Assembly: GCF_020510625.1 (NCBI RefSeq)
Contig: NZ_CP075191.1
Span: forward strand, 2,084,001 to 2,148,000
Origin: Ferribacterium limneticum
GTDB taxonomy: Bacteria; Pseudomonadota; Gammaproteobacteria; Burkholderiales; Rhodocyclaceae
DNA length: 64,000 nt
Direction: 5' to 3'
A program made the position numbers and the translations under genes. Below the pieces are notes generated by a model, which did not search any database, was not told where the DNA came from, and saw only the letters and a program-made list of their open reading frames with translations. Of the stretch, positions 10,002 through 62,241 are shown in pieces; within the stretch, counting starts at the first letter, position 1; each line of letters opens with the position of its first letter.

Positions 10002-11324
10002 TTAAGGCTTTTTTTTCAGATATTTGACGGCATAACGCTTGGGCAGGGCTTTAACAACACGGGGGCATTGACGCCCCCGTCGCTTTTCCACGATGGCGAA
10101 TTGAAGCTGGATGCGCAAGCGCAACAAATGGGAGGGCAGTCTGCCCGGCGCCATCCCGGCCGCCCAGATCATTTCATTCTGCAAGATGTGCAGAGCCCGC
10201 AGGAAACTGAGGTCAGTCGGCTCGACCTTGGCTTGAATGGCGGCCTTGGCCATTTCCAGGCGGACCAGATTGTAGGCAATCAAGGCCCCCCAGATTTCCT
10301 GATTGATCCCCGTGGGTTGCTGACTGCGCAACGTCAGGGCCGTGCCGAGCATGGATTGCTTGAGTTCGCGATAGCTGGTTTCGATTTCCCAGCGACGGCG
10401 ATAGCACTCGGCCAAATCCTCGGCCTTGAAGCGGCGACGATCCAGCAGTGAGGTCAGCAGCACCCGTTCCTTCCCGTTGGCCGCCACCATCCGGACAGCG
10501 CGGGCCGTCCAGTATTCGGGCAGCGAGGGCGCTTTGGCGCGGGCTTGCGGCGAAACGCGCATACGCACGAGGCCATCTTGCTCGGTACCGGAGAGTCGTT
10601 CCCATTTTGTATTGGATTTGGCGGGAATCAGGTAGTGCCGCTCTTCTCCTCTCAAGCTCAGACCCAAGAGGATTTCCGCACAGAGAAAGCCACGATCAAA
10701 GACGGTCAGCGAATGCTCGGCGATACGCTCGACCAGCGTCTTGGCGTACAACATCTCGTTCTGGCCGTACTGGCCGAAGGCCATGTCGGCCACCAGATGC
10801 GAGGGAATCGCCGTGACGCTGACGGCCCGGACCTGCGGGTAACTCGCCACCTTGCCGCTGGCGTATGTCTGAGCACCAAAATGGGCCCGGTTCTCGGCGC
10901 TATCGGGCGTGCGAAAGGTGGTGCCATCCATGGCCCACAGGGAGAGTCCCTTCCAGGTATGGCGCTCGGCATCTTGCGCGCACCAGGCGCTTGCCGTCTG
11001 GCTGAAGAGAGTTTCAAGCGGATCGCTCCCCAGGCGTTGCCTGGCTTGCGTGACGGCACTCTTGCTGATGACCGGGGTCGCTGTGGACGGCAATGCCAGG
11101 TCCAGTGTCGCCAGCACTTCGGGCACGGATTGGTGCCGGTACAACGCCAGCGCAATAACCAACCACACCACTTGTTCGGCCGGTAATCGCCGTCGTCTGA
11201 TACTGGCCGTACCGGTCGCCCTGAGCGCCTGCTCAATCCACGCCAGCGGCAGATGCTCGGCCAATCGGTCAAGACCGATTGCGGGTAGAACATCCGTTGT
11301 CGCGTGAAGTTGGCTCGAGAACAT
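10002..11324 (-). CDS. IS4-family DDE transposase
   Basis: A 440-aa cut-and-paste transposase. The catalytic triad is visible: first Asp in LSLWAMDGTTFRTP, second Asp in LTVFDRGFLCAEIL, and Glu in the IS4 signature YRRRWEIETSYRELKQSMLG (Y-x2-R-x3-E-x6-K). The protein ends in a basic tail and its TAA stop (10002-10004) lies inside the left inverted repeat. It starts at ATG 11322-11324. The short leader contains a 7-bp inverted repeat CTATTGT-TT-ACAATAG (11349-11364) that could be an operator. The frame is intact, so the element may be active. Confidence 0.95.
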   Translation of the reverse strand: MFSSQLHATTDVLPAIGLDRLAEHLPLAWIEQALRATGTASIRRRRLPAEQVVWLVIALALYRHQSVPEVLATLDLALPSTATPVISKSAVTQARQRLGSDPLETLFSQTASAWCAQDAERHTWKGLSLWAMDGTTFRTPDSAENRAHFGAQTYASGKVASYPQVRAVSVTAIPSHLVADMAFGQYGQNEMLYAKTLVERIAEHSLTVFDRGFLCAEILLGLSLRGEERHYLIPAKSNTKWERLSGTEQDGLVRMRVSPQARAKAPSLPEYWTARAVRMVAANGKERVLLTSLLDRRRFKAEDLAECYRRRWEIETSYRELKQSMLGTALTLRSQQPTGINQEIWGALIAYNLVRLEMAKAAIQAKVEPTDLSFLRALHILQNEMIWAAGMAPGRLPSHLLRLRIQLQFAIVEKRRGRQCPRVVKALPKRYAVKYLKKKP

Positions 11325-16788: not shown

Positions 16789-17733
16789 TTGAAGCGCGTT
16801 CTCGTCGTCAATTTTTCGCAAACCGGCCAGCTATCGGACATCACCGCGCAGTTGATCGGCCCGCTGCGCGATGCCGGCAATGAGGTTCATCTGGAAACGC
16901 TGCAGCCAGAGAATCCATTTCCTTTTCCGTGGCCGATCATCGATTTTGTCGATGCCATGCCCGAGTGCGTGCAACTTGATGCGCCGCCCCTGAAAGCGCT
17001 GGGCATCCCGCCCGCAACCGACTTCGATCTGGTGATCCTGAGCTATCAGGTCTGGTTCCTTTCCCCCGGTCTGCCGATGACGGCTTTCCTGAAAAGCCAG
17101 GAAGGCCAACGGCTGCTCAATGGCAAGCCGGTCGTCACCCTCGTCGCCTGTCGCAATATGTGGCTGTCGGCCCAGGAAACGATGCAGCGATTGATCGTCG
17201 AGGCCGGTGGCCAGTTGCGCGACCATATTGCCTTCACCGACCGCGGCCATCCGCTGGCCACTTTCATTACCACACCGCGCTGGGTTCTGACCGGCAAACG
17301 AGATCGCTTTCTTGGCATGCCCCCGGCCGGCGTCGCACCTGAAGAAATCGACGCAGCCAGCCGTTTCGGCCGAGCGCTGGCCGATGCGCTGAGCAAGGGT
17401 GAAGAAACAACCGGCCGGGCGATGCTGACCGGGCTACGTGCTGTCACCGTCAACCCTAGGCTGGCCATCAGCGAACGGGCTGGGCGACGGGCGTTTGGCG
17501 TCTGGTCAAAACTGATCCGTGCCTTCGGCAAACGCGGGCAATGGCAACGCCGCCCGGCCCTGCTCGTCTTTTCGATTTACCTAATTACCATGGTATTGAC
17601 GGTCGTTCCGACAAGCCTATTGTTACAATGGTTATTTTCCCCCCTGCTCAAACCGCGACTCGATCGGCTGCGCGCCCAACTAGAACAACCCAGCGGTTCC
17701 CAGGAATTCAACTTGCAAAAATATGACCAGTAG
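16789..17733 (+). CDS. DarA-type dialkylresorcinol protein (aromatase/condensing enzyme family)
   Basis: A flavodoxin-like protein resembling DarA of dialkylresorcinol clusters, where DarA works with the KAS DarB to build the resorcinol ring. Seen: N-terminal LKRVLVVNFSQTGQLSDITAQL (flavodoxin phosphate-loop-like), FDLVILSYQVWFLSPGLPMTAFL, LVACRNMWLSAQETM, FTDRGHPLATFITTPRW and a C-terminal hydrophobic hairpin (LLVFSIYLITMVLTVVPTSLLLQWLFSPLL). I chose TTG 16789 because family members begin at MKRVLV and a TAGAAT -10-like box lies at 16754-16759; ATG 16714 is the alternative. It overlaps the KAS III gene by 11 bp and is first in the operon. Confidence 0.75.
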   Translation: MKRVLVVNFSQTGQLSDITAQLIGPLRDAGNEVHLETLQPENPFPFPWPIIDFVDAMPECVQLDAPPLKALGIPPATDFDLVILSYQVWFLSPGLPMTAFLKSQEGQRLLNGKPVVTLVACRNMWLSAQETMQRLIVEAGGQLRDHIAFTDRGHPLATFITTPRWVLTGKRDRFLGMPPAGVAPEEIDAASRFGRALADALSKGEETTGRAMLTGLRAVTVNPRLAISERAGRRAFGVWSKLIRAFGKRGQWQRRPALLVFSIYLITMVLTVVPTSLLLQWLFSPLLKPRLDRLRAQLEQPSGSQEFNLQKYDQ

Positions 17734-18874
17734 CGGTAGCGCCTACATCACGAGTACCTCAGCCTTCCTGCCCAACGCCCCGGTCGCCAACGACGACATC
17801 GAAAAGGTGCTTGGCATGATCGCCGGCAAGCCTTCGCGCGCCCGCCGCATTGTGCTGCGCAATAACGGCATTCGAACCCGCCATTACGCGATCGACCCGG
17901 CGAGCGGCGAATTTACGCACTCCAATGCCCAACTGACGGCCGAAGCGATCCGCGGCCTTGATCTTGCCGGGGTCGATGTCCTCGCTTGCGGCACCTCCTG
18001 TCCTGACCAGCTGATGCCCAGCCACGGCGTGATGGTCCATGGCGAATTGGGCATTCCTCCCTGCGAGGTAGTATCGACAGCGGGCATATGCGCCGCCGGG
18101 GTCAGCGCCCTGAAATACGCCTACATGGCAGTGTTAACGGGGCAGGCCCGCAATGCGCTGGCCACGGGCTCCGAGCGGGCTTCCGGAGGCCTGCTGGCCC
18201 GCAATTACGACCTGGAATCGACACATCGCGTCGCAGAACTGGAAGAGAATCCGGAAATCGCCTTCGAAAAGGATTTTCTGCGCTGGATGCTCTCCGACGG
18301 CGCTGGCGCTTTTCTTGTGCAGAACGCACCGCGCCAGCAAGGTTTGTCACTGCGTATCGACTGGATCGACATCCAGTCACAGGCCGGCAGCATGCCGGTT
18401 TGCATGTATGCAGGCGGAGACAAGGCCGCCGACGGCACCCTGAAAGGCTGGCAGGAATATGCCGCCAGCCAATGGGGGGAACGCTCGATTTTTGCTGTCA
18501 AACAGGACGTCCGCCTGCTCAATGAATCAATCGTGGAGCAGACCTTTGGCAAGCCACTGAGCAAAGCCAGACGCAACCACGACCTCGCAGCCGACGAAAT
18601 CGACTGGTTCCTGCCCCACATGTCCTCAGAGTATTTTCGACAACCGTTGGCCGATTTCATGGCCGCAGCGGATTTCTGCTTGCCGCCGGAAAAATGGTTC
18701 ACCAATCTGCAGACCAAGGGCAATACCGGCTCGGCATCGATCTTCATCATGCTTGACGAACTGTTCCGCAGCGCTCGCCTCAAAGTCGGGGACCGCTTGC
18801 TCTGTTTCGTCCCGGAAAGCGGCCGCTTCACCGGCTCGCTGATGCATCTGACCGCCGTTGATCATGCTGGATAG
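17723..18874 (+). CDS. DarB-like beta-ketoacyl-ACP synthase III
   Basis: A 383-aa KAS III-fold ketosynthase. The catalytic triad is complete: Cys123 in EVVSTAGICAAGVSALKYA, His299 in DWFLPHMSSEYF and Asn334 in TKGNTGSASIFIML. As DarB-type enzymes do, it probably condenses two acyl thioesters, with DarA closing and aromatising the ring; this is inference from the family and the neighbour. The N-terminal part (RRIVLRNNGIRTRHYAID) is typical of the subfamily. It overlaps the gene upstream by 11 bp and the gene downstream by 11 bp, indicating translational coupling. Confidence 0.85.
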   Translation: MTSSGSAYITSTSAFLPNAPVANDDIEKVLGMIAGKPSRARRIVLRNNGIRTRHYAIDPASGEFTHSNAQLTAEAIRGLDLAGVDVLACGTSCPDQLMPSHGVMVHGELGIPPCEVVSTAGICAAGVSALKYAYMAVLTGQARNALATGSERASGGLLARNYDLESTHRVAELEENPEIAFEKDFLRWMLSDGAGAFLVQNAPRQQGLSLRIDWIDIQSQAGSMPVCMYAGGDKAADGTLKGWQEYAASQWGERSIFAVKQDVRLLNESIVEQTFGKPLSKARRNHDLAADEIDWFLPHMSSEYFRQPLADFMAAADFCLPPEKWFTNLQTKGNTGSASIFIMLDELFRSARLKVGDRLLCFVPESGRFTGSLMHLTAVDHAG

Positions 18875-19259
18875 CGAAGTCCCGCAGGAAGGCAACAGCA
18901 CACTGGGCGGACACCGCAAGGCGCTTTACGCTCGCGGCGACGACGGCAAGCTGCACATCGTCCAGTCAGCCGGCTGGGAGGTTGAGGAAATTGTCACCCG
19001 CCAGGCCATTGACGACCTGCTGCGGCTGACCGAAGACGCCCGCCAGCGCGTGCTTTCCGGCCAGACTTCGCCGCTCGAATACCACATGTACCGGGTACGG
19101 ATGGATGTCCCGCTGCTCTCGCAGGCCAGCGGTGTCTGGCAATGGCGCATTCGCCGGCATTTTCGGCCGGCCATTTTCGCCAGCCTGTCGCCCGCCCTGC
19201 TCGCCCGCTACGCCAACGCCATGGGCCTCACCGTCGAACAGCTGAAAAAGGCCGACTGA
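18864..19259 (+). CDS. Unrecognised 131-aa protein of the ketosynthase operon
   Basis: No domain recognised. The protein is soluble, without signal peptide or membrane helix. An N-terminal beta-rich piece (ALYARGDDGKLHIVQSAGWEVEEIVT) leads into helices (RQAIDDLLRLTEDARQRVLSGQTSPLEYHMYRVRMDVPLLSQASGVWQWRIRRHF) and a C-terminal helical tail (LSPALLARYANAMGLTVEQLKKAD). ATG 18864 overlaps the KAS III gene by 11 bp and the stop overlaps the next start as TGATG, so it is surely expressed with them. It could be an accessory or adaptor protein; no function is assigned. Confidence 0.75.
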   Translation: MLDSEVPQEGNSTLGGHRKALYARGDDGKLHIVQSAGWEVEEIVTRQAIDDLLRLTEDARQRVLSGQTSPLEYHMYRVRMDVPLLSQASGVWQWRIRRHFRPAIFASLSPALLARYANAMGLTVEQLKKAD

Positions 19260-20251
19260 TGGACTTCCAGCACAGCCAGGCCTCCCACTGCGAAAGCGGC
19301 GTCATGTCTTCGATGCTGCGCCATCACGGGCTGCCGCTCTCCGAGCCGATGACCTTCGGCCTGTCATCCGCCCTCTCCTTCGCCTACCTGCCGATCATCA
19401 AGATCAACGGGCTGCCGCTGGTCGCTTACCGCATGCCGCCCAAGGCCATCATCAAGGGCCTGCAGAAGCCGCTCGGCCTGAAGATGCGTTTCGAGACTTT
19501 CCGCAATCCGGACGCCGGTGTTGCCCGTCTCAACGAACTGCTGGCTGATGGAAAGATCGTCGGCCTGCAAACCTCGGTCTTCTGGCTGCCCTACCTGCCG
19601 GAAGACCTGCGTTTCCATTTCAACGCCCATAACGTGCTGGCTTTCGGGCGTGACCAAGCCTCCGGCGATTACCTGCTGTCCGACCCAGTGGCCGAAACCA
19701 CGGTCACCTGTCCCGCCCCCGACCTGCAGCGGGCGCGCTTCGCCAAGGGGGCGCTGGCGCCGAAAGGCCTGCTCTACTACCCGGTCGGCCAGCCGCAGAT
19801 GCCGGACTGGCATAAGGTTCTGCCTGCCGCCATCAAGAAGACAACGCGCATCATGCTCGACGCCCCGCTGCCGATCATCGGTGTGCGCGGCATTCGCCAT
19901 CTGGCCAAGGCCATCGAAAGGCTCGACGCCAGCGGCGACCCGGCACGCACCAAGATGTTCATCGGCCAGGTGGTGCGCATGCAGGAAGAAATCGGTACCG
20001 GCGGCGGCGGTTTTCGTTTCATCTACGCCTCGTTCCTGCAGGAAGCGGCCGAACTGCTGGCACGTCCGACGCTCAACGAGCTCTCCGAAACCCTGATCGA
20101 CATTGGCGACGAATGGCGTGAATTCGCGCTGGCCACTGCCCGCCAGATCCGCGACCGCGACCCGCTCGCCCCCGTGGCCCTGGCCGACAAGCTCCGCCAG
20201 ATCGCCGACCGCGAACAGGGCTTCTTCCGCGACCTGCGCCGCGCCGTCTGA
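19259..20251 (+). CDS. BtrH-family (papain/C39-like) putative acyltransferase
   Basis: A 330-aa protein with the BtrH N-terminal domain signature: QASHCESGVMSSMLRHHGLPLSEPMTFGLSSALSFAYLP (Cys in HCESG, likely nucleophile), KIVGLQTSVFWLPYLP and FNAHNVLAFGRDQASGDYLLSDP (His of AHNVLAFG). In butirosin synthesis BtrH moves an acyl group from an acyl carrier protein to an amine. By analogy this one may unload a chain from the carrier protein encoded three genes downstream. The C-terminal half is helical. The start overlaps the previous stop (TGATG), and its last base is the first base of the next ATG. Confidence 0.8.
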   Translation: MDFQHSQASHCESGVMSSMLRHHGLPLSEPMTFGLSSALSFAYLPIIKINGLPLVAYRMPPKAIIKGLQKPLGLKMRFETFRNPDAGVARLNELLADGKIVGLQTSVFWLPYLPEDLRFHFNAHNVLAFGRDQASGDYLLSDPVAETTVTCPAPDLQRARFAKGALAPKGLLYYPVGQPQMPDWHKVLPAAIKKTTRIMLDAPLPIIGVRGIRHLAKAIERLDASGDPARTKMFIGQVVRMQEEIGTGGGGFRFIYASFLQEAAELLARPTLNELSETLIDIGDEWREFALATARQIRDRDPLAPVALADKLRQIADREQGFFRDLRRAV

Positions 20252-21162
20252 TGCTGCACATCGAGGGCGTCTCGTTCCGCTACCGTGAGGCGACGAGCCC
20301 GGCGCTGGCTGACCTGACGTTGGACATCCCGGCTGGCGCTGTCTATGGCCTGCTCGGCCCTAACGGTGCCGGTAAAACGACACTGATTTCGCTGCTGGCC
20401 GGGCTGCTGAAAACCGCCACCGGAAACATCTTGCTGCATGGCCAGCCCTTGGCCGATGCCCGGGCTGCCAATCCCCGCGCCATTGCCCTGGTGCCGCAGG
20501 ATTATGCTTTCTACCCGATGCTCACCGTGGCCGAAAACCTGCGCTTCTTCGGCGGCGTACTCGGTCTGACCGGCGCCGACCTGAAGGCGCAGACAGATGC
20601 CGCCATCGTCTTCGCCCGTCTCGAACAGGTTACCGCCAAGCGGGCCGAACAGCTTTCCGGCGGCCTGCGCCGGCGCCTGAATCTGGCCATCGGACTGCTC
20701 GGCCAGCCGCAACTGTTGCTGCTGGATGAACCGACCGTCGGCGTCGACCCGCAATCGCGCCACTTCCTGCTCGACGCCATCGCGGCCCTGCCGGCGGCCG
20801 GCACGACAGTGATCTACACCAGCCACTACATGGAAGAAGTCGAGGCCATCTGCCAGCGCATTGCCATCATCGACCAGGGCCGACTGCTGGCTGAAGGTTC
20901 TCTGGCCGACATCTTGCACAGCCCTGAGCCGCAAGTCGAACTCCAGCTCGACCTGCCGTTGCCCGAGGACATTGCAGAACGCTATACCGCCTGCCCGCTC
21001 GGCCATCTGCAATACCGGCTGGACCTGGCATCGACCACCTCCTTGCCCCGCCTGCTCGACGAACTGGCGGCAGCGGGCTGCACCGTCCGCCACCTGAATC
21101 TCGGCCAGCATGACCTGGAGCAGTTTTTCATGCGCCTGACCAAGCGCTCGCTGCGGGACTGA
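20251..21162 (+). CDS. ABC-2 exporter ATP-binding protein
   Basis: A 303-aa ABC ATPase of the drug/polyketide exporter type. Walker A GPNGAGKTTLISLLAG (about residue 36), Q-loop VPQDYAFYPMLTVAEN, signature LSGGLRRRLNLAIGLLGQP, Walker B LLLLDEPTVGVDPQSR, and H-loop YTSHYMEEVEAI are all present. The C-terminal about 80 residues (from SPEPQVELQLDLPLP) form the extension common in ABC-2 exporters. It shares the A of its ATG with the last base of the previous stop and is followed 3 bp later by its permease. It probably exports the operon's product. Confidence 0.92.
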   Translation: MLHIEGVSFRYREATSPALADLTLDIPAGAVYGLLGPNGAGKTTLISLLAGLLKTATGNILLHGQPLADARAANPRAIALVPQDYAFYPMLTVAENLRFFGGVLGLTGADLKAQTDAAIVFARLEQVTAKRAEQLSGGLRRRLNLAIGLLGQPQLLLLDEPTVGVDPQSRHFLLDAIAALPAAGTTVIYTSHYMEEVEAICQRIAIIDQGRLLAEGSLADILHSPEPQVELQLDLPLPEDIAERYTACPLGHLQYRLDLASTTSLPRLLDELAAAGCTVRHLNLGQHDLEQFFMRLTKRSLRD

Positions 21163-21165
21163 GCC

Positions 21166-22398
21166 ATGTCGCCCCGCCTGCTTGCTCTCTGGCTCAAGGA
21201 ATCGATCGCCCTGCTGCGCGACCGGCATGGCTTGCTTGCCCTGTTCATCATGCCGACCATTTTCATCCTGGTCATGACCATGGCACTGCGCGATGCTTTT
21301 TCGCCGGGCGTCAGCATCGACGCCGCCTATGTCGTCGTCGATCTCGACCACAGTCCGCATTCCAAGGCACTGATCAAGCGCCTCGACAAGAGCGTTTCCT
21401 TCAAGCGCCTGCCGGCTGCCGATGATGCCGAAAAGGCCCGCCAGGGCATCCTCGATGGCCATCAGGTACTGGTGCTGGTGCTCCCCAAGGGCTTTGGCGA
21501 ACGCCTGCTGGCGCCGGCCGGCGCTGACGGCCAGCCGACCGAAGCACTGCAACTGCTGCTCGATCCGGCGCTCAGCCCGGCCCTGCAACTCGCCTTCCGC
21601 AACCAGGTGATGGCGGCGCTGGGCGCGGTGCGGGCCGACGAACTGACGCGCAGTGCCGGCAAGCTGTTCGGCCTGCCGGTTGCCCCCGGCGCCAGTGCCG
21701 AACGCGAGTGGCCGGACGAAATCCACAGCATCGCCGTGCGCAACGACCGCAGCATCCGGCCGCCCTCTTCGGTGCAACAGAACGTCCCGGCCTGGCTGAT
21801 CTTTGCGATGTTCTTCGTCGTCATTCCGGTTTCGTCGATTTTCATCATCGAACGCCAGCAGGGCACGCTACAGCGCCTGCGCGCCATGGGCCTGCCTTTC
21901 CATCTGATCCTCGCCGGCAAGCTGCTGCCCTTCTTCATCGTCAATCAATTGCAGGCCGTGCTGATGGTGCTGGTTGGCATTTACCTCGTCCCGTTGTTCG
22001 GCAGCGAAGCGCTGGAACTGCCGGGCAGCCTGCCGCTGCTGTTCAATCTGTGGGCTGTCGCCGCCGCCGTCAGCCTGGCCGCCGTCTCGCTCGCCCTGCT
22101 CGTTGCCAGCCTGGCCCGAACCTCAGAACAGGCCACGGTCATCGGCGGTGTCGGCAATATCCTGATGGGCGCCATCGGCGGCATCATGGTCCCCAAATTC
22201 GTGATGCCGGCCGCCATGCAAAAGCTCGCCACCCTGTCGCCAATGGCCTGGGGTCTCGAAGGCTTCCACACCGTGATGCTGCGCCACGGCAGCTTTACCG
22301 ACATCCTGCCCAGCCTGGCCCAGTTGCTCGCCTTTGCCGCTGCGGCGCTGACCGTTGCCGTCTGGCTCAATCACCGCTCACTCGCTGCCCAATCATGA
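21166..22398 (+). CDS. ABC-2 type exporter permease
   Basis: A 410-aa inner-membrane permease of the ABC-2/DrrB-YhhJ type. It has one N-terminal membrane helix (LLALFIMPTIFILVMTMALRD), a large periplasmic domain (about residues 45-205), and five C-terminal helices (LIFAMFFVVIPVSSIFIIE, ILAGKLLPFFIVNQLQAVLMVLVGIYLVPLF, SLPLLFNLWAVAAAVSLAAVSLALLVASLA, AIGGIMVPKFVMPAAM, LAQLLAFAAAALTVAVWL). The layout matches exporters with an extended first extracellular loop. Its stop overlaps the carrier protein start (ATGA). Confidence 0.9.
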   Translation: MSPRLLALWLKESIALLRDRHGLLALFIMPTIFILVMTMALRDAFSPGVSIDAAYVVVDLDHSPHSKALIKRLDKSVSFKRLPAADDAEKARQGILDGHQVLVLVLPKGFGERLLAPAGADGQPTEALQLLLDPALSPALQLAFRNQVMAALGAVRADELTRSAGKLFGLPVAPGASAEREWPDEIHSIAVRNDRSIRPPSSVQQNVPAWLIFAMFFVVIPVSSIFIIERQQGTLQRLRAMGLPFHLILAGKLLPFFIVNQLQAVLMVLVGIYLVPLFGSEALELPGSLPLLFNLWAVAAAVSLAAVSLALLVASLARTSEQATVIGGVGNILMGAIGGIMVPKFVMPAAMQKLATLSPMAWGLEGFHTVMLRHGSFTDILPSLAQLLAFAAAALTVAVWLNHRSLAAQS

Positions 22399-22664
22399 CC
22401 GCTGAACTCCGCCTCGAACTCAAGGCCCTGATCATCGAAGCCTGTGACAAGGACTGCGCTCCGGCCAGCATTACCGACGACGAAATCCTGTTCGGCCCGG
22501 AAGCCCCGCTGCAACTCGATTCGCTCGACGCCCTGCAGGTCTCGATGGCGATCAAGAAGAAATATGGCCTGCGCCTGCCGGACAGCAAGGAAACCCGCCG
22601 CATCCTGTCCAGCGTAGGCAACCTGGCCGAGCACCTCGAAAGCTGGCTCGCCAGCCGCGCATGA
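22395..22664 (+). CDS. Acyl carrier protein (phosphopantetheine carrier)
   Basis: An 89-aa carrier protein: four-helix ACP fold with the attachment Ser43 in LQLDSLDALQVSMAI. The DSL motif is intact. The flanks IEACDKDCAPASITDDEILFGPEAP and GLRLPDSKETRRILSSVGNLAEHL fit ACP helices I and III-IV. It would carry the growing or finished acyl chain for the ketosynthases and the BtrH-like protein. The start is fixed by the ATGA overlap with the permease; the stop overlaps the next ketosynthase start. No phosphopantetheinyl transferase gene is nearby, so a host enzyme must load it. Confidence 0.9.
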   Translation: MTAELRLELKALIIEACDKDCAPASITDDEILFGPEAPLQLDSLDALQVSMAIKKKYGLRLPDSKETRRILSSVGNLAEHLESWLASRA

Positions 22665-23740
22665 AACGACCGGTTTATATCGCCGACTGCGGGCTGATCT
22701 GCGCCCGCGGCGAAACGGCAACGGCTGTGGCTGAAGCCCTGTGGCGCGGCGAATCCGGCTCCGAGAAGCGCTGCCTGGGCGAACGCGAATTCCCCTATTT
22801 CGCTCTGCCGATGAGTGAAGACAGCTGGCTGCAGCGGGCCGAACGAGCCATTCGCTTGGTGACTGGCCAACTGGCGTCGCTCCCTCCGACCACCCCGCTG
22901 TTCATCGCCTCATCCTCTTTCCAGATCGGCCATTTCGAGCAGCAAGGGGCGCCGTTCGACCTGCCGCTGGCGACCGCTTCGTTGAGCCGCCAAATTGCCC
23001 GCTGGATGGACCTTTCCGGCCCATGCTACAGCTTCTCGAATGCCTGCATCTCAGGCTTCTCGGCCATCGACGCGGCCGGTACCTTGATCGCCGCCGGCCA
23101 GATCGATGAAGCGGTCGTCCTCGGATTCGAGCTGGCCAACGTTGCCACGCTGGCCGGCTTTGCCTCAATGGAACTGCTGTCGCGCACAAGCTGCCGCCCC
23201 TTCGATGCCCGGCGTGACGGCCTGGTCCTTGGCGAAGCCGTCGCCGCCGTTCGCCTGAGCGCCAAACCCGCTCCGTGGAGAATCGCCGGGCTACGCACCG
23301 GCCTGGACGGCTACTCGACGACCGGCCCCGACCCGGATGGCGGCCCCATCGCCAAGACGGCTATCGCCAGCCTGAAAGCAGCCAATGTCGGCCCGGCCGA
23401 AATTGATCTGGTCAAATTGCAGGCTGCCGGCTCGCCCGGCACCGACCTCGCCGAAGCCAACGCGCTGCACAAGGTTTTCGGCACCGAGATGCCGCCGCTG
23501 CTCTCGCTAAAACCAGCCCTTGGCCACACGCTCGGCGCCAGCGGCATCGCTGAACTGGCGGCCCTGCTGGCCTGCCTCGACGCAGGAACCATCCCGGCGA
23601 CGGCAGGTTTCACCGAAGCCGACCCCGAACTCGGCCTGGCGCCGATCACTCACCGCAGCAATGACCCGGTTCGCCGGGCCATGCTTAACCTGATCGGCTT
23701 CGGCGGCGGGCTGGCCACGATGATCGTGGAGCGCACCTGA
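22661..23740 (+). CDS. Beta-ketoacyl synthase (KAS I/II fold) lacking one catalytic His
   Basis: A 359-aa thiolase-fold ketosynthase. The nucleophile Cys129 (YSFSNACISGFSAID) and the second His (His289, KPALGHTLGASG) are present. The segment that normally reads HGTxTxxxD reads AAGSPGTD (residues 255-261), so the first His of the Cys-His-His triad is missing. RPFDARRDGLVLGEAVAAVRL is a typical KAS motif. In KAS enzymes both His residues help decarboxylate malonyl-ACP, so this protein may transfer or condense acyl groups differently. It overlaps the carrier protein start/stop and the following gene (TGATG). Confidence 0.85.
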   Translation: MKRPVYIADCGLICARGETATAVAEALWRGESGSEKRCLGEREFPYFALPMSEDSWLQRAERAIRLVTGQLASLPPTTPLFIASSSFQIGHFEQQGAPFDLPLATASLSRQIARWMDLSGPCYSFSNACISGFSAIDAAGTLIAAGQIDEAVVLGFELANVATLAGFASMELLSRTSCRPFDARRDGLVLGEAVAAVRLSAKPAPWRIAGLRTGLDGYSTTGPDPDGGPIAKTAIASLKAANVGPAEIDLVKLQAAGSPGTDLAEANALHKVFGTEMPPLLSLKPALGHTLGASGIAELAALLACLDAGTIPATAGFTEADPELGLAPITHRSNDPVRRAMLNLIGFGGGLATMIVERT

Positions 23741-24414
23741 TGATTTACCTTCACGCCGCGCTCAGCCAGCAGTTTGCCCCGGCCAACCTGCCGGGTGCAG
23801 TCCGTGCCACGCTCGGCAAACCGCTGCGCCGCGCCGCCGGCTTGACCCAGTTGGCCTTGGTTGGCGCTTTCGCCTGCTTGCCGGAAGAGCGCCGCCACCT
23901 GCCGACCGCCCTGCTCTGGCAATCAACCAGCGGCCCGCGGCTCGAAACGATCACCCTGCTAGAGGAAATCTGCGACGGCGCCGCCGAGCCGATGCCCTAC
24001 GACTTTCTCGCCACCCAGCCAGCCATCGCCGCTGCCCAGATCCAGCCCATGTTGCCTGGGCTGCAATCCGCCATGCACATTCCGCTCGACAGCGAGAACA
24101 GCACCAACTGGTCGCTGCTGCTCAATCTGGCGATCGAATGGCTGAACGAGGGCCGCTACGCCCAGGTTCTCTGCGCCCAACTCGACCATTGGGCCGAGCG
24201 CTCGAGCGGCCACTGGCTTTGTGTCGGCACCGAACCTCTTGAAAACTCGCTCACCAGCCTCCAAATAGTCACGGAACCATCGCCTGATGCCCATGCCGAC
24301 ACGTCGGATTTTCCGGCGCGACTGTCCGACTGGCTGAATCACGGCGACACCGCCACCCTTTCCCTGCATTCCACCGCCGCCCCACAGCTGGCGGTAGAAT
24401 TCGCCCGACTCTAA
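23740..24414 (+). CDS. Ketosynthase-like protein without catalytic residues
   Basis: A 224-aa protein resembling the beta-ketoacyl synthase N-terminal-like family that accompanies ketosynthases in aryl-polyene and related clusters. The N-terminus (GAVRATLGKPLRRAAGLTQLALVGAFACL) and TALLWQSTSGPRLETITLLEEICDG match the thiolase half-fold edge; SLLLNLAIEWLNEGRYAQVLCAQLDHWAE follows. I see no ketosynthase active-site Cys, and the HGT/GH His motifs are absent. It probably pairs with the ketosynthase just upstream, in the manner of a chain-length factor; this is inference. It is the last gene of the operon. Confidence 0.7.
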   Translation: MIYLHAALSQQFAPANLPGAVRATLGKPLRRAAGLTQLALVGAFACLPEERRHLPTALLWQSTSGPRLETITLLEEICDGAAEPMPYDFLATQPAIAAAQIQPMLPGLQSAMHIPLDSENSTNWSLLLNLAIEWLNEGRYAQVLCAQLDHWAERSSGHWLCVGTEPLENSLTSLQIVTEPSPDAHADTSDFPARLSDWLNHGDTATLSLHSTAAPQLAVEFARL

Positions 24415-44246: not shown

Positions 44247-44777
44247 TCAGCGTTTGATGAGCTCGACGTTGATCGTCTGCGCTTTCGAGGAATTAAGTAC
44301 GCGATGTAGCAGGGCGTAAGCGACTCGCCACTTCTGCCCATCTGCGTTGAGGGTGACGGTTTTGTCATTGAGGCGGACGACCTGGCCACTACGTTGCCGA
44401 TGCTCATGGTCAAGGAAACCGACGGTATCGCCGATGGCCACTTCATGGCGGCTCAGCCCTTGCTGAGGATTGTCACGGATGCGGACATCAACGCCACCCA
44501 GATTGATGGCGGTGTAGGCAATCAGCCAGTGCTCCCCGGTGTCGGTTTCACGAACCAGCACTTCCTTGGTTCGGAACTCGCGTACTTGTGCCGGGCGAAG
44601 CTTATTTGCTCGGGCATCGAAATACTCGATTTCCTGGCCAATGCGCAGTTGCGAACGAATGGCGATGATCCATTTGGGATCGGCCAGCACGCGATCAATC
44701 GCGGCACGTAGGCGATAGAGTTCGAAGCCGGAGGCCTGGTTCATGGCATCGAGCAGTGTGGCAAATTCCATGGCCAA
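44247..44777 (-). CDS. Accessory fourth protein of the IS66 element
   Basis: A 176-aa protein whose start lies inside the end of tnpC (37-bp overlap); it is the last gene before the left end of the element. No domain recognised. Seen: LLDAMNQASGFELYRLRAAIDRVLADPKWIIAIRSQLRIGQEIEYFDARANKLRPAQVREFRTKEVLVRETD, then two short beta-rich repeats (VAIGDTVGFLDHEHRQRSGQVVRLNDKTVTLNADGQKWRVAYALLHRV) that look like small SH3- or KOW-like barrels. Being inside the element, it travels with it; a DNA- or RNA-binding helper role is speculation. Confidence 0.8.
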   Translation of the reverse strand: MAMEFATLLDAMNQASGFELYRLRAAIDRVLADPKWIIAIRSQLRIGQEIEYFDARANKLRPAQVREFRTKEVLVRETDTGEHWLIAYTAINLGGVDVRIRDNPQQGLSRHEVAIGDTVGFLDHEHRQRSGQVVRLNDKTVTLNADGQKWRVAYALLHRVLNSSKAQTINVELIKR

Positions 44778-46345
44778 TGGACCTCCGTCGGCTTGAGCGG
44801 CAAGAGTTCATCGATCCGGCTGTAAGGCCAGACAGGGAGCTTTTCCAGAACATCCTTGAGCCAGGCATAGGGTTCAAGGCCATTCAACTTGGCGGTCGCC
44901 AGCAGGCTTTGAATGGCCGCAGCCCGACATCCTGCCCGTTCCGAGCCGGTAAAGAGCCAATTGCGGCGCCCGAGCGTAATCGGCCGAATCGCGTTCTCGA
45001 CCGGATTGTTGTCGATCGGGTTATCACCTCGCGACACATAGCGCAGGATGGCCGGCCAGCGCTTGAGCGTATAGTCGACTGCTCGCGCCAATCCGCTGCC
45101 ATTCGCCGTTCTGAGCCGCTCGACTTTCAGCCACTCATGGAGTGACTGGAGGCGCGGCAGCGCCTCGCGTTGGCGTAACACCAAACGATCTGCCGCTTCT
45201 ACCCCTGCCACCTCAGCTTCCAGCGCATACAACTCGCCGATGCGACGCAGCGCTTCTTCCGCTACCGGATGGCCGCCCGGCAGCGCATGCAAGTCGAAGA
45301 ACTTGCGACGGCAGTGTGCCAGGCAGGCGAGTTCGGTCACGCCTTGCTGAAACAGGGCTTTGTATCCCCCGTAATCATCGACCATCAGGTCGCCACGCCA
45401 TTCCGCCAGGAAATCGCGCGCATGCTGACCGCTACGACTGGTCTGGTAATCGAAGACGACGATGGGCGGCCTGCGCTCCAGGTCGTTGCTGCGGTAGGCC
45501 CACATGTAGGCCCGTTTTGTCTTGCCCTTGCCGGGATCGAGCTGCTGAACCGGCGTTTCGTCGGCATGCAGGACCTTGCCCTGCTTTAGTAATTCGCTCA
45601 GTCGATCAACCAGCGGCTGCAGGGCAACGCCCAATTGCCCAACCCATTGCGCTAGGGTCGAACGGGCAATCCCGACACCGTGTCGTTCGCTGATCTTCTC
45701 AATCCGGTACAACGGCAGATGATCCAGATATTTCTGGATCAGTACCCAGGCATGCAGCCCCGGCGCCGCCAGGCCACCGTCGATCAGCGCCGGCGCAACG
45801 GGAGCTGCGGTGATCGTTTCACAGGTGCGGCATGCATACTGCGGCCGAATGTGGCGATGCACGAAGAAACGTGCCGGTTCGACATCCAGTTGCTCGCTGA
45901 CATCCTCACCAATCTTGATCAGGCCGGCACCGCATTGCCCACAGGTGCAGGATGCGGGTTCATGACGGTGCTCGATGCGCGGCAATTCTGGCGGAATCGC
46001 CTTACGCCCGGTCGGCTTCGGACGCGACTTCTCGATGGCGCCTTGAAGCTGTGCGAGTTCGGCCGAAATGGCGGCCTGATCTTCGTTGCAGGATTCGAGA
46101 AACAAATCCTGCTGCGCAACCGACAGGGATTCGCTCTTGGCGCCAAACTTGACTCGTCTGTAGTACGCCAGTTCCAGCGTCAGTTTCTGAATCTTCAGAT
46201 CGCGCTGCTTAATTTCTCCGGCTTGTTCCTGACGTTGCTTCTCACTGGCGGCCAACTCGGTTTGCAGGGCTGCAAACTGTGCTTCAGCCCACTCTGGCAG
46301 CACCCGTGCCGCCGCAAATTGAAGGGTTTCGGCACCAGAGTTCAT
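44741..46345 (-). CDS. tnpC: IS66 transposase TnpC
   Basis: A 534-aa IS66 transposase. It has the N-terminal coiled coil (AQFAALQTELAASEKQRQEQAGEIKQRDLKIQKL) with LAYYRRVKFGAKSESLS, the zinc-binding CTCGQCGAGL and YACRTCE, and IRPQYACRTCETITAAP. The DDE core carries VLHADETPVQQL (first Asp), LMVDDYGGYKALF (second) and the Glu region in NNPVENAIRPITLGRRNWLFTGSERAG. The C-terminal SLLATAKLNGLEPYAWLKDVLEKLP is standard. ATG 46343-46345 fits the family start. The frame is intact. Confidence 0.95.
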   Translation of the reverse strand: MNSGAETLQFAAARVLPEWAEAQFAALQTELAASEKQRQEQAGEIKQRDLKIQKLTLELAYYRRVKFGAKSESLSVAQQDLFLESCNEDQAAISAELAQLQGAIEKSRPKPTGRKAIPPELPRIEHRHEPASCTCGQCGAGLIKIGEDVSEQLDVEPARFFVHRHIRPQYACRTCETITAAPVAPALIDGGLAAPGLHAWVLIQKYLDHLPLYRIEKISERHGVGIARSTLAQWVGQLGVALQPLVDRLSELLKQGKVLHADETPVQQLDPGKGKTKRAYMWAYRSNDLERRPPIVVFDYQTSRSGQHARDFLAEWRGDLMVDDYGGYKALFQQGVTELACLAHCRRKFFDLHALPGGHPVAEEALRRIGELYALEAEVAGVEAADRLVLRQREALPRLQSLHEWLKVERLRTANGSGLARAVDYTLKRWPAILRYVSRGDNPIDNNPVENAIRPITLGRRNWLFTGSERAGCRAAAIQSLLATAKLNGLEPYAWLKDVLEKLPVWPYSRIDELLPLKPTEVHWPWNLPHCSMP

Positions 46346-46405
46346 GCCCCGGATTATACCATCGACAACGCCGAAAACCCTTGCCAACACAGGGTTTATG
46401 CCCGA

Positions 46406-48702: not shown

Positions 48703-49538
48703 GGGCTGTTAACAATTGGGTTTTTGGCGATCATGCCAGCCAGATATAGGCGGAAGCGAGGTTGAGCATGGACATGAAGTTCTGCGCTAGCTTCTCGTAG
48801 CGTGTGGCGATGCGCCTGAACTGCTTGAGTCGGCAGAAAAAGCGTTCGACGAGGTTGCGGTCTTTGTAAAGGTGACGATCATAGGCACGCTGAGTCAGGC
48901 GATTACCGCGTGGCGGAATCACCGCCTGTGCGCCCTGCGCTTCAATGGTGTCGACGAATGCGTTGGCATCGTAGCCCTTGTCGGCGATGACGCTCTGCGC
49001 CTCAATCCCCTCGATGAGAGCGGCTGCTTCGGTAATGTCGGCGATTTGCCCAGCGGTCAGGCGCAAACGCAAGGGATTACCCAGGGCCTCAACCGCCGCA
49101 TGAATTTTGGTACTCAGTCCGCCCCGGCTACGCCCGATGGCTTGATCGCCCGCTTTTTTTGGGCGCCAGTCGCGTGTTGGTGGGCTCGCACGATGGTCGC
49201 GTCGACAAACAACTGCTCCAGATCGGCGTCGCTCTTGAGTGCTTCGGCCATCCGCGCCCAAACCCCTTTCTTGCTCCAGCGGGAAAAGCGCATGTACGTC
49301 GTGTGCCAAGCTCCGAAGTGCGTGGGCAGGTCGCGCCACGGCGAGCCCGTGCGGGCGATCCATAGCACCGCTTCGACAAAGAGTCGGTTGTCGCGCCCAG
49401 TTACCCCGCGCTCGTTGGCTCTGCCTGAGCACAGGGCTTCGATTCGCCGCCATTGGTCGTCTCGCAACATCTTCCGGTCCATCCTCGCAGACTCCAAAAA
49501 GCGAGAATGTACATAGTTTCGTCATTTGTGAACAGCCC
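48703..49538 (-). mobile_element. IS5-family (IS427-like) insertion sequence, 836 bp
   Basis: The ends begin GGGCTGTTAACAA (48703) and, on the other strand, GGGCTGTTCACAA (49538), an inverted repeat with one mismatch over 13 bases. CTAG flanks both sides (48699-48702 and 49539-49542), fitting the short CTAG/TA targets of this group. Inside are two overlapping frames joined by a slippery A7. The element sits about 197 bp upstream of the PEP-CTERM start and outside its promoter. Confidence 0.93.
48731..49482 (-). CDS. IS5-family transposase made by programmed -1 frameshift (OrfAB)
   Basis: OrfA (49482 to a stop at 49114) begins MDRKMLRDDQWRRIEALCSG and carries the first DDE Asp (LEQLFVDATIVRAHQHATGA). 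OrfB, in the -1 frame down to 48731, carries GGLSTKIHAAVEALGNPL, the second Asp (VIADKGYDANAFV) and Glu (DRNLVERFFCRLKQFRRIATRYEK). At 49154-49160 the minus strand reads CAA-AAA-AAG, a canonical A_AAA_AAG slippery heptamer exactly where the frames join. A -1 slip gives about 250 aa. This is normal expression for the group, not damage. Confidence 0.93.
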
Positions 49539-49715
49539 CTAGGCACTTTTGCATACCTCCTCGATTCGAGTGACTGACAGCCCACCAAGCTGACTACGAC
49601 CCCACAAATGGAAAATGCCGCTCAACTGACCAAACAGCATTATGCTTAAGAGCGCTCTTTTCTATTTTCAGAATTACAATTACTCTGCGCTTGGGAATGT
49701 AACCCCGCATCCTGC

Positions 49716-49731: not shown

Positions 49732-49769
49732 ATCACCAAAGAGAATTTGGCTTGACCCATTGCTCCGGT

Positions 49770-50987
49770 ATGATTTCTGTAGCCTTGGCTTTTTTTTCCA
49801 TTGCCAGGCAACCCCGAAGATCGCTGATGGCCATACTTGCCGTCGCATTCGGCATTTCAGCTTTACTCTTGGCCAGTGGTTTCATCGAGTGGAATCTGCG
49901 CTATGGCCGAGAATCAACGATTCATTCAGAACTTGGTCACATTCGAATTTTCAAACCAGGTTACTTGTACGCCGGTTCGGCGGACCCATTCGGCTACCTG
50001 CTGGATACCGATACTGCCCAAGAGAAGAGCGTATCTAGTTTCCCTCACATCGAACTGATCACTCCTCGCTTATCTTTCAATGGATTAGCTAGTTTTGGCG
50101 AGTCAACCCTATCCTTCATTGGCGAAGGGGTAGACCCGATCAACGAGGAACGCCTGAGCAAATCTTTGACGATCACATCGGGCAAATCACTTTCACCAGA
50201 ATACCCAAAGGGAATTATTGTCGGTCAAGGGTTGGCTGAGAATTTGGGCGTAAAACCAGGTGACTCGATTGTATTGATGGTCAATAGTGCAACCGGCGGT
50301 GTCAATGCCATCGAGGTCACAGTCCTCGGACTTTTTGCGACAATCACTAAAGCCTACGATGACGCAGCCCTCCGCGTCCCGATTTCACTTGCTAGGCAAC
50401 TGATGAGGGTCAAGGGATCACACTCCTATGCCATTCTGCTCGACAAAACAGAAAACACTTCAAGCAGTCTGGATGGTCTAAAAACCAGCTTTGGCGAAAA
50501 GGGACTTGAGTTCGTCCCGTGGTATGAGATGGCGGACTTCTACAATAAGACCGCCGAGCTTTTCTCGCGGCAAGTGAATGTTGTTCGCTTGATCATCGCT
50601 GTCATCATCGTACTCAGCATATCGAATACGCTAATGATGAACGTTATGGAACGAACGGGTGAGATAGGGACGATCATGGCGATCGGGGTCAAGCGCAAAG
50701 AGGTGCTGATTCAATTTCTAGCCGAGGGGTTGATTCTGGGTATGGCCGGCGGAGCGCTAGGACTTATATTAGCCTATACCCTCGGAGTACTCATATCAGC
50801 AATCGGGGTACCGATGCCTGCACCACCAGGAATGTCATTTGGCTATACCGCCGAAATCCTTATCAACTGGCGGATGGCTTTTGAAGCCTATTTTCTGGCC
50901 ATCATGACAACACTGGTGGCTAGCGTAATTCCGGCCATCAAGGCTTCACGGATGGAGATCGTCAATGCATTGCGACACAATCGCTGA
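49770..50987 (+). CDS. FtsX/MacB-type ABC transporter permease (first of two)
   Basis: A 405-aa inner-membrane permease with the MacB/LolCE layout. There is one N-terminal helix after the coupling segment LAFFSIARQPRRSLMAILAVAFGISALLLASGF, then a large periplasmic domain (about 45-270). Three C-terminal helices follow (VNVVRLIIAVIIVLSISNTLMMNVMERTGEIGTIMAIGVKR, LIQFLAEGLILGMAGGALGLILAYTLGVLIS, FEAYFLAIMTTLVASVIPAIKASRMEIVNALRHNR). The family-typical ERTGEIGTIMAIG loop is intact. ATG 49770 keeps the whole amphipathic lead; TTG 49752 is the alternative. Its ATPase is likely the one at 41845. Confidence 0.88.
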   Translation: MISVALAFFSIARQPRRSLMAILAVAFGISALLLASGFIEWNLRYGRESTIHSELGHIRIFKPGYLYAGSADPFGYLLDTDTAQEKSVSSFPHIELITPRLSFNGLASFGESTLSFIGEGVDPINEERLSKSLTITSGKSLSPEYPKGIIVGQGLAENLGVKPGDSIVLMVNSATGGVNAIEVTVLGLFATITKAYDDAALRVPISLARQLMRVKGSHSYAILLDKTENTSSSLDGLKTSFGEKGLEFVPWYEMADFYNKTAELFSRQVNVVRLIIAVIIVLSISNTLMMNVMERTGEIGTIMAIGVKRKEVLIQFLAEGLILGMAGGALGLILAYTLGVLISAIGVPMPAPPGMSFGYTAEILINWRMAFEAYFLAIMTTLVASVIPAIKASRMEIVNALRHNR

Positions 50988-50990
50988 ACC

Positions 50991-52208
50991 ATGATGCTCA
51001 AACTTGCATTTCGCAACATCTTCCGACAGCACGTTCGTACCGCAATCACACTGGCAGCCATTATCTTTGGCGTTGTCGGCCTGATTCTGGGCGGCGGCTT
51101 CGTTCGCGATATTTTTTTCCAGCTCGGTGAAGCCTTGATCCATTCGCAATCCGGCCATCTGCAAGTCGTCAAACCTGGGTATTTCACTTACGGATCAAGG
51201 TCTCCAGAGAAATTCTTGATTACTGATGCCCAGCCATTGAAACGTGAACTAGCAAAGATTCCTGAAATACAAGAGGTACTCGAACGAGTCAGCTTTACGG
51301 GGCTGCTGAATAATGGAAAAACGGATTGGCCAATCGTGGCTGATGGTGTTGAACCGGATGGCGAAGCACGGCTAGGCAGTTTCATGCAGATCGTCGAAGG
51401 CCGCCAGCTTACTCAGAAAGACAATTTTGGCGTGACGATTGGGCAAGGCGTTGCCAAGGCGCTTAATCTCAAGCCTGGCGACCGAGTTTCTCTGCTTGTC
51501 AACACGCCAGAAGGTGCCTTGAACACGATGGAGTTGGAGATCGTCGGTATCTTTCAGAGTTTCTCGAAAGATTACGATGCTCGCTTCATTCGCCTCCCCT
51601 TACCTGCAGCTCATGAGTTGTTAGGCTCGCAGGGCATCAACAGCTTGGTTATCTCATTAAAACAGACCGCTGACACAGAGACCGTGTCAGCAAAACTGAA
51701 GGCCATGCTCAAACCAGAGCAATACGAAAGCCGGACATGGGTTCAGCTCAATGATTTCTACGAAAAGACAGTCGCACTCTACGAGCAGCAATTTGGTTTC
51801 CTGCAACTGATCATTTTGATCATGGTTCTATTGAGCGTGGCCAATAGTGTCAGCATGAGCATCTTCGAGCGCACAGGTGAGTTTGGAACAATAATGGCCA
51901 CAGGCAGCCGCCCGATAGATGTCATTAAAATGTTGATTACTGAAAGTGCGTTGCTTGGATTGATTGGCTCAAGCCTGGGAGTATCTATTGGCATTGCCGC
52001 TGCGCTGCTGATATCAAGTATCGGGATACCCATGCCCCCCCCCCCCAACGCCAACCTCGGTTATCTGGCGACAATTCAACTCTCTGTGATCGATATTTTT
52101 ATCTCGTTCATGATTGGTTTTGCGGCGACCACGCTTGCCTGCCTTTGGCCGGGAATACGGGTGACCAGGTTGCCAGTCATCGACGCGTTGCGCCAGAATC
52201 AGATCTGA
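50991..52208 (+). CDS. FtsX/MacB-type ABC transporter permease (second of two)
   Basis: A 405-aa permease similar in layout to the one 3 bp upstream: LAFRNIFRQHVRTAITLAAIIFGVVGLILGGGFV at the start, a periplasmic MacB-like domain, then FLQLIILIMVLLSVANSVSMSIFERTGEFGTIMATGSRP and two further helices ending IRVTRLPVIDALRQNQI. Two different permeases would form a LolCE-like heterodimer. The transporter may move lipids or lipoproteins outward with the LolA-like protein and the DUF1302-like barrel. A run of nine C residues (52038-52046, coding PPPP) is a potential slippage site. Confidence 0.9.
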   Translation: MMLKLAFRNIFRQHVRTAITLAAIIFGVVGLILGGGFVRDIFFQLGEALIHSQSGHLQVVKPGYFTYGSRSPEKFLITDAQPLKRELAKIPEIQEVLERVSFTGLLNNGKTDWPIVADGVEPDGEARLGSFMQIVEGRQLTQKDNFGVTIGQGVAKALNLKPGDRVSLLVNTPEGALNTMELEIVGIFQSFSKDYDARFIRLPLPAAHELLGSQGINSLVISLKQTADTETVSAKLKAMLKPEQYESRTWVQLNDFYEKTVALYEQQFGFLQLIILIMVLLSVANSVSMSIFERTGEFGTIMATGSRPIDVIKMLITESALLGLIGSSLGVSIGIAAALLISSIGIPMPPPPNANLGYLATIQLSVIDIFISFMIGFAATTLACLWPGIRVTRLPVIDALRQNQI

Positions 52209-52267
52209 GTACCGACGGGTCTCTGTTGTGCATCCAGAGATAAAACGCCAATACACCGGGAGCAATA

Positions 52268-53140
52268 ATGCGCACATTTGACTACAACACCGCATTTTCT
52301 CGAAATATCGGCTGGGTTACCGAAGCCGAGCAGGAACGGCTAAGAAATTGCCGTGTCGCCATTGGCGGTCTAGGCGGAGTTGGAGGGGTACACTTGCTAA
52401 CTCTCGCCCGCCTGGGAATTGGAAAATTCAACGTAGCTGATTTTGATAAATTTGATCTCGTCAATTTCAACCGCCAGGTCGGAGCAACAATGAGTTCGCT
52501 TGACCGCCCAAAGATCGAAGTCCTTGAAGAAATGGCACGGGATATCAATCCGGAACTGGATATCCATCTCTTTCCTGAGGGCCTCTCCAGCGAGAATCTC
52601 GATAAATTTCTGGAGGGAGTGGATGTATATGTCGACGGCCTGGATTTTTTTGTATTCGACATAAGACGAAAGACCTTCGCCGCCTGCCGAGCCAAGGGAA
52701 TTCCAGTCGTAACAGCAGCCCCATTAGGCTTAGGGACAGCGGTTCTTGTCTTTAGCCCGAGCGGCATGTCTTGTGAAGACTATTTCGGTTTCGAAGGCTG
52801 CGACGAGCTTGAAATGGCAATCCGCTTCCTCGTCGGCCTCTCGCCCGCAGTATTACAGCGTGGTTACGTTGCAGACATGAGTCGCATCAGCCTGCCCGAA
52901 CGGCGCGGACCATCGTCCATTGCATCATGCCAGTTATGTGCCGGTGTTGCTGCCGTGGAAACGCTAAAGCTTCTGCTGGGTCGGGGTGAAATTCAGTACG
53001 CCCCTAGGGGTAGCCAGTTCGATGCCTACCGCATGAAATATGTTCGCACCTGGCGCCCGGGCGGACACCGAAATCCATTACAACGGTTGATGCGCTTTCT
53101 TTTGAGACAACAGCTAAGAAAAGCAAGCAATTCCGCTTGA
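52268..53140 (+). CDS. ThiF/MoeB/E1-like adenylyltransferase
   Basis: A 290-aa E1-like protein. The adenylation domain shows RLRNCRVAIGGLGGVGGVHLLTLARLGIGKFNVADFDKFDLVNFNRQVGAT (nucleotide-binding Gly-rich loop, Asp and the catalytic Arg) and LDRPKIEVLEEMARDINPELDIHLF. The Cys-rich region (SCQLCAGVAAVETLKLLLG) has only one CxxC pair. There is no rhodanese domain and no ubiquitin-like partner nearby. The basic C-terminus (RNPLQRLMRFLLRQQLRK) is unusual and could be membrane- or nucleic-acid-binding. Such proteins activate carboxyl groups; the substrate here is unknown. It lies 60 bp after the permease. Confidence 0.88.
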   Translation: MRTFDYNTAFSRNIGWVTEAEQERLRNCRVAIGGLGGVGGVHLLTLARLGIGKFNVADFDKFDLVNFNRQVGATMSSLDRPKIEVLEEMARDINPELDIHLFPEGLSSENLDKFLEGVDVYVDGLDFFVFDIRRKTFAACRAKGIPVVTAAPLGLGTAVLVFSPSGMSCEDYFGFEGCDELEMAIRFLVGLSPAVLQRGYVADMSRISLPERRGPSSIASCQLCAGVAAVETLKLLLGRGEIQYAPRGSQFDAYRMKYVRTWRPGGHRNPLQRLMRFLLRQQLRKASNSA

Positions 53141-55561: not shown

Positions 55562-55570
55562 GGAATTCTG

Positions 55571-58091: not shown

Positions 58092-58095
58092 GCGC

Positions 58096-60355: not shown

Positions 60356-60357
60356 CA

Positions 60358-61197: not shown

Positions 61198-61200
61198 ACC

Positions 61201-62235: not shown

Positions 62236-62241
62236 GATCGA

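Follow-up and report, generated by a model that had tools for sequence, protein, structure and literature searches.

The locus described here lies in a 64,000-nucleotide window of the Ferribacterium limneticum genome and consists of nine co-directional open reading frames (ORFs) occupying positions 16789–24414 on the plus strand. The genes are real and correctly placed, and their closest relatives are found in Dechloromonas and Azonexus genomes. Neighboring genes overlap by 11, 11, 4, 1, 4, 4, and 1 bp, except that darF (end 21162) and darI (start 21166) are separated by 3 bp. The operon is flanked upstream by pyrG on the opposite strand and by a thioredoxin-like gene 18 bp downstream. The gene names are those of the Azoarcus dar cluster (PMC3949708), in which the 131-amino acid protein is called darD (DarG in NCBIfam) and the BtrH-like protein darE (DarH in NCBIfam), while darG and darH denote a PHD/PilT pair that is absent from the Ferribacterium operon.

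Gene products of the operon

The first gene, darA (16789–17733, plus strand), encodes a flavodoxin/WrbA-fold protein of 314 amino acids, the proposed aromatase of a cyclohexanedione intermediate. Its ORF is open from 16657, and the TTG at 16789 agrees with the start and the 314-amino acid length of several orthologues. No match to it was found in Pfam or NCBIfam (the latter even at an E-value of 10) or in a sequence search of the PDB; since family models gave nothing for this gene or for the ninth, fold comparison was needed for both. The AlphaFold2 (AF2) model of DarA, built from 23 orthologues, has a pLDDT of 91.8, and its best fold matches are WrbA and FMN-binding flavodoxin-like structures, a fold that would fit an oxidative aromatase. 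GPCR entries among the fold matches (e.g., 5tgz and 6li1) were set aside; 6li1 is named as a flavodoxin fusion in the table of matches, and the remaining ones, such as 5tgz, are presumably the same sort of crystallization fusion. DarA orthologues adjoin DarB in 77 loci, the SQTGQ and CRNMW motifs are conserved over the 23 sequences, and in loci of Proteobacteria, Bacteroidota, and Streptomyces, relatives are accompanied by adjacent DarB or KAS III-like genes. The predicted identity of DarA thus rests on its position, on relatives adjoining DarB elsewhere, and on the modeled fold rather than on a family model. On a linear plasmid of Streptomyces sp. NBC_01383 (locus L095, 6565–8969), a DarA-like protein annotated as hypothetical has an ACP and a KAS III-like protein as neighbors, so that pairs resembling DarA/DarB are not confined to Gram-negatives.

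The second gene, darB (17723–18874, plus strand), encodes a KAS III-like ketosynthase (cyclase) of the StlD/DarB family, scoring 599.3 bits against NF005293 (cut-off of 450) and matching the StlD structures 5gk0 and 5gk2 with an E-value of 4e-143. Its Cys-His-Asn triad (C123, H299, and N334) is invariant in all sequences covering these positions. Against the stricter "resorcinol_DarB" exception model, NF053539, the protein reaches 499.9 bits, below the cut-off of 550, and it is therefore assigned to the StlD/DarB subfamily and not to the exception model.

The 131-amino acid product of darD (18864–19259, plus strand) scores 172.7 bits against the DarG family model NF053536 (cut-off of 70) and 122.4 bits against the flexirubin-specific DarG model NF053545, below its cut-off of 170. 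The product of darE (19256–20251, plus strand) is a BtrH-related acyltransferase composed of BtrH_N and DUF4872 domains (PF14399, 159.6 bits, and PF16169), which scores 479 bits against the DarH model NF053550 (cut-off of 300) and whose residues C12, H125, and D143 are invariant in 81 of 81 sequences. An ABC exporter is encoded by darF (20251–21162, plus strand; ATPase, PF00005), which holds the same position in relatives, and darI (21166–22398, plus strand; ABC-2 permease, PF12698, 123.6 bits). They are followed by darC (22395–22664, plus strand), an acyl carrier protein with its serine in an LDSLD motif, scoring 20.9 against PF00550 (cut-off of 20.8) and 53 bits against NF006617, below the cut-off of 70.

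The last two genes encode a ketosynthase and a partner protein. DarJ (22661–23740, plus strand) carries C129-Q254-H289 in place of the Cys-His-His triad, and its best PDB sequence matches are 6qsp_A (ApeO) and 7f28_B. DarK (23740–24414, plus strand) is a ketosynthase-like protein corresponding to the N-terminal half, of the chain-length-factor type; it had no match in Pfam or NCBIfam (even at an E-value of 10 in the latter), and its AF2 model (pLDDT 85.5) gave 7f28_C, 6qsp_B (ApeC), and 7f28_A as the best Foldseek matches, with E-values of 3e-8 to 7e-8. By sequence for DarJ and by modeled fold for DarK, the pair resembles the aryl-polyene ketosynthase/chain-length-factor pair ApeO–ApeC (6qsp; PMC8358021). 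The likeness is limited to fold and pairing, as the Cys-His-His triad of the ApeO–ApeC ketosynthase subunit is not matched by DarJ of Ferribacterium and most of its relatives, which lack the first catalytic His.

Most of what the initial annotation had read from this set has held up. The nine compact, co-directional genes are confirmed by ORF coordinates and overlaps; the ABC-2 exporter, ACP, and BtrH-family calls are borne out by Pfam and, for the last, NCBIfam; the ketosynthase with an altered triad is real; and its proposed partner has the fold of the chain-length-factor subunit ApeC. Within the DarA/DarB core, DarB stands by its family model and DarA by position, neighbors, and fold. The 131-amino acid protein, which had been called unknown, belongs instead to a named family.

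Conservation of the operon and the distant polyene genes

The neighborhood was surveyed in 80 loci with a BtrH-like protein. In 25 of them, all nine genes stand in the same order, bounded by pyrG and the thioredoxin-like gene, while most of the remaining loci are either broken by contig ends or belong to more distant genera in which the order is largely retained; in Variovorax, Azoarcus/Thauera, and Bacteroidota, the order is mostly kept and the flanks differ. Such an order is far beyond chance. Neither of the outcomes that the initial annotation had named as refuting it, namely, the lack of a conserved neighborhood in relatives or profile searches placing the first two genes outside the DarA/DarB families, was observed. 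One locus (L055, 11113–14181) has the downstream half (K, J, C, I, and F) inverted relative to A, B, D, and E, with polyene-type genes alongside.

A 2014 paper described these genes, in this order, from Azoarcus sp. BH72, whose dar cluster (azo0283–azo0293) belongs to the arcuflavin pathway and reads darA, B, D, E, F, (G, H), I, C, J, and K (PMC3949708, Table 1). The Azoarcus cluster differs in having the PHD/PilT toxin–antitoxin-like pair between the ATPase and permease genes, and two surveyed loci (L036 and L038) carry approximately 0.5 to 1 kb of extra sequence between darF and darI, at the site of that pair. The arc and dar clusters of BH72 are listed as separate gene-number blocks, the Azoarcus dar proteins make dialkylresorcinol (DAR) in Escherichia coli, and the arcuflavin hybrid pigment has been demonstrated (PMC3949708). 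According to the same paper, Dechloromonas aromatica, Variovorax paradoxus, and Sideroxydans lithotrophicus likewise have dar and polyene clusters.

As in Azoarcus BH72, the polyene genes of Ferribacterium lie elsewhere in the genome, at C1:4181718–4208247, approximately 2.1 Mb from the window. A ketosynthase at 4194646 scores 547 bits against PRK09185 (cut-off of 407), and around it (4.181–4.208 Mb) are an AMP ligase (PF00501), two dehydratases, a ketoreductase, a partner made up of a ketosynthase N-terminal domain, a second ketosynthase, two ACPs, LolA, an MMPL exporter, acyl- and glycosyltransferases, and a halogenase-like flavoprotein. An FkbO/Hyg5-type chorismatase of the same region scores 133.7 bits against PF21168, above the cut-off, and 231 bits against TIGR04444, below the cut-off of 325. 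As predicted from gene content, the 4.18–4.21 Mb set is of the arcuflavin/xanthomonadin polyene type, with a chorismatase of the XanB2/ArcB type and an AMP ligase of the ArcT type.

This distant set bears on the proposal of the initial annotation that the nine genes form a new, self-contained pathway without polyene partners. Pfam and NCBIfam searches found no ketoreductase, dehydratase, or ammonia lyase within 16789–24414, so the statement that tailoring genes are absent is correct for the operon itself. As a sign of an unusual pathway it fails, since the ketoreductase, dehydratases, and starter enzymes are encoded in the same genome and the same split is published for Azoarcus BH72; the genes seemed missing because they sit so far away. 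A self-contained pathway is consequently very improbable, and of the route that had been sketched, a DAR core, a carrier, a BtrH-type transferase, and a dedicated exporter, as deduced from the genes, are what stands.

The dar and polyene genes also go together across genomes. In a family sample of 121 genomes, 14 of which have DarH, a chorismatase is present in 11 of the 14 versus 16 of the 107 genomes without DarH (Fisher p = 2.4e-6, with relatedness ignored). Near the source organism, a polyene ketosynthase exceeds the cut-off in 16 of 16 DarH genomes examined, and its partner is present at a high score in 13 of them. DarH occurs without a chorismatase in three family genomes (G201, G253, and G257) and in G143, so these four may use a different polyene starter; all four have the polyene ketosynthase, and polyene clusters are present in G253 and G143 despite the missing chorismatase. 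In another genome (G024), the dar genes are located inside the polyene cluster. In a phylum sample of 398 genomes, both DarH and the polyene ketosynthase exceed their cut-offs in all 13 with DarB over its cut-off; because all three co-occur, the DarH–DarB link is inseparable from the DarH–polyene link in this sample. Two checked genomes with weaker DarB-like matches have neither DarH nor the polyene ketosynthase.

Proposed pathway and the ester-forming step

The gene order shared with Azoarcus BH72, the NCBIfam assignments of DarB, DarG, and DarH, the polyene set in the genome, the co-occurrence, and the folds place the locus in the arcuflavin pathway, and we give a probability of roughly 0.87 to the operon encoding the DAR half of an arcuflavin-type yellow membrane pigment. 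DarB would join two fatty-acid-derived acyl thioesters to a cyclohexanedione, which DarA, a flavoprotein by fold, would oxidize to a 2,5-dialkylresorcinol. Starting from hydroxybenzoate made by the chorismatase, the separate cluster would assemble an aryl polyene bound to a carrier protein. The two halves would then be linked as an ester, for which the BtrH-related enzyme acting from the ACP is the best candidate; most probably it would transfer the polyene as the acyl chain, with the dialkylresorcinol itself serving as acceptor. The DarJ/DarK pair would probably pass or gate the acyl chain, and DarF/DarI would move the product, their presumed cargo, toward the envelope. The most likely product is thus a predicted polyene–dialkylresorcinol ester exported to the envelope.

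An operon devoted to free dialkylresorcinols as a signal or antibiotic, comparable to those of Photorhabdus (DarABC signaling) and Pseudomonas chlororaphis, is an improbable alternative. DarA and DarB alone are enough for dialkylresorcinol formation in heterologous expression (PMC3992019), and in Photorhabdus asymbiotica, dialkylresorcinols serve as signals in their free form (PMC4414361). The operon, however, contains no LuxR-type receptor gene, DarB is accompanied by DarH and the polyene ketosynthase in all 13 DarB genomes of the phylum sample, and in Azoarcus BH72 free DAR was not detected, the DAR being built into arcuflavin (PMC3949708).

The pigment reading is also close to the flexirubin clusters of Chitinophaga pinensis and Flavobacterium johnsoniae (PMC3992019), which likewise combine DarA/DarB with an aryl-polyene ester of dialkylresorcinol and whose polyene part includes genes for LolA-like proteins and exporters, as in Ferribacterium. 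Relatives of DarG and of the BtrH-like protein are also present in loci from Bacteroidota. The flexirubin starter is supplied by a tyrosine ammonia-lyase, whereas the Ferribacterium set has a chorismatase, and the Ferribacterium proteins fall short of the flexirubin-specific models for DarG and LolA2.

For the ester step of arcuflavin and flexirubin assembly, the candidate enzymes are the BtrH-like protein and DarJ/DarK, with near-perfect genomic co-occurrence. In butirosin biosynthesis, BtrH serves as an ACP:aminoglycoside acyltransferase (PMC10318531), and it has in common with DarH a BtrH_N domain in which Cys, His, and Asp are invariant; the acceptor of DarH would differ, being most likely the phenolic resorcinol, which would give an ester and not an amide.

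The altered triad of DarJ, read from the alignment, is real and mostly, not universally, conserved: of 70 aligned sequences, 60 have Gln at the position of the first catalytic His, and His is kept in the other 10, which include the Azoarcus/Thauera-type loci L035, L036, and L038. Ferribacterium DarJ differs from the latter in having Gln254, and the separate ketosynthase pair of its own polyene cluster keeps the His at that position. Loss of this His should impair decarboxylative condensation. Ketosynthase-like proteins with such a changed triad can still move acyl chains, and the substitution suggests acyl transfer rather than condensation; DarJ/DarK would probably pass or gate an acyl chain rather than elongate it. 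In a tentative version, to which we give less than an even chance, the pair is a ketosynthase/chain-length-factor couple that has lost condensation and acts as a shuttle, moving the completed polyene off its carrier protein onto DarC, where the BtrH-like enzyme would take it up to form the phenyl ester. It is rather doubtful that DarJ/DarK forms the ester itself and the BtrH-like protein acts elsewhere, e.g., as a thioesterase or editing enzyme. The retained nucleophile Cys129 would allow acyl movement in that scheme too, but the BtrH homologue in the operon keeps its Cys-His-Asp residues and has a known acyltransferase as its namesake, and the ten His-retaining relatives imply that a non-condensing role of DarJ is not universal. 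The cispentacin pair AmcF–AmcG was also compared, since AmcF bears the name "acyltransferase subunit" in NCBIfam; it was dropped as support for a transfer role, as the pair condenses and cyclizes (PMC10698177).

The system type being known since 2014, the Ferribacterium locus is a well-conserved member of it, now placed in a published pathway with the apparent gap in its tailoring genes explained. It is ordinary apart from the unusual, putative ketosynthase pair, and the remaining interest is narrow, namely, a pair with a changed triad in this pathway.

Other features in and near the window

Just upstream of the window (C1:2049332–2078080) is a large hybrid PKS/NRPS cluster that encodes a fatty-acyl-AMP ligase, a type I PKS with aminotransferase and NRPS modules (3,823 amino acids), a further PKS (1,855 amino acids), and an NRPS with a thioester reductase (2,497 amino acids). 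Within the window, transposase genes of the IS4, IS66, and DDE_Tnp_1 types lie at 10002–11324, 44741–46390, and 48731–49588. Two adjacent ABC-permease-like genes stand beside a ThiF/MoeB-like E1 protein at 49752–53140; the second is of the FtsX/MacB type by Pfam, and the first is similar by eye. An XrtA/PEP-CTERM exopolysaccharide locus at 54002–63462 comprises genes for a chain length determinant, a tyrosine autokinase, a TIGR03016 outer-membrane protein, an ATPase, a deacetylase, FemAB, and a glycosyltransferase.
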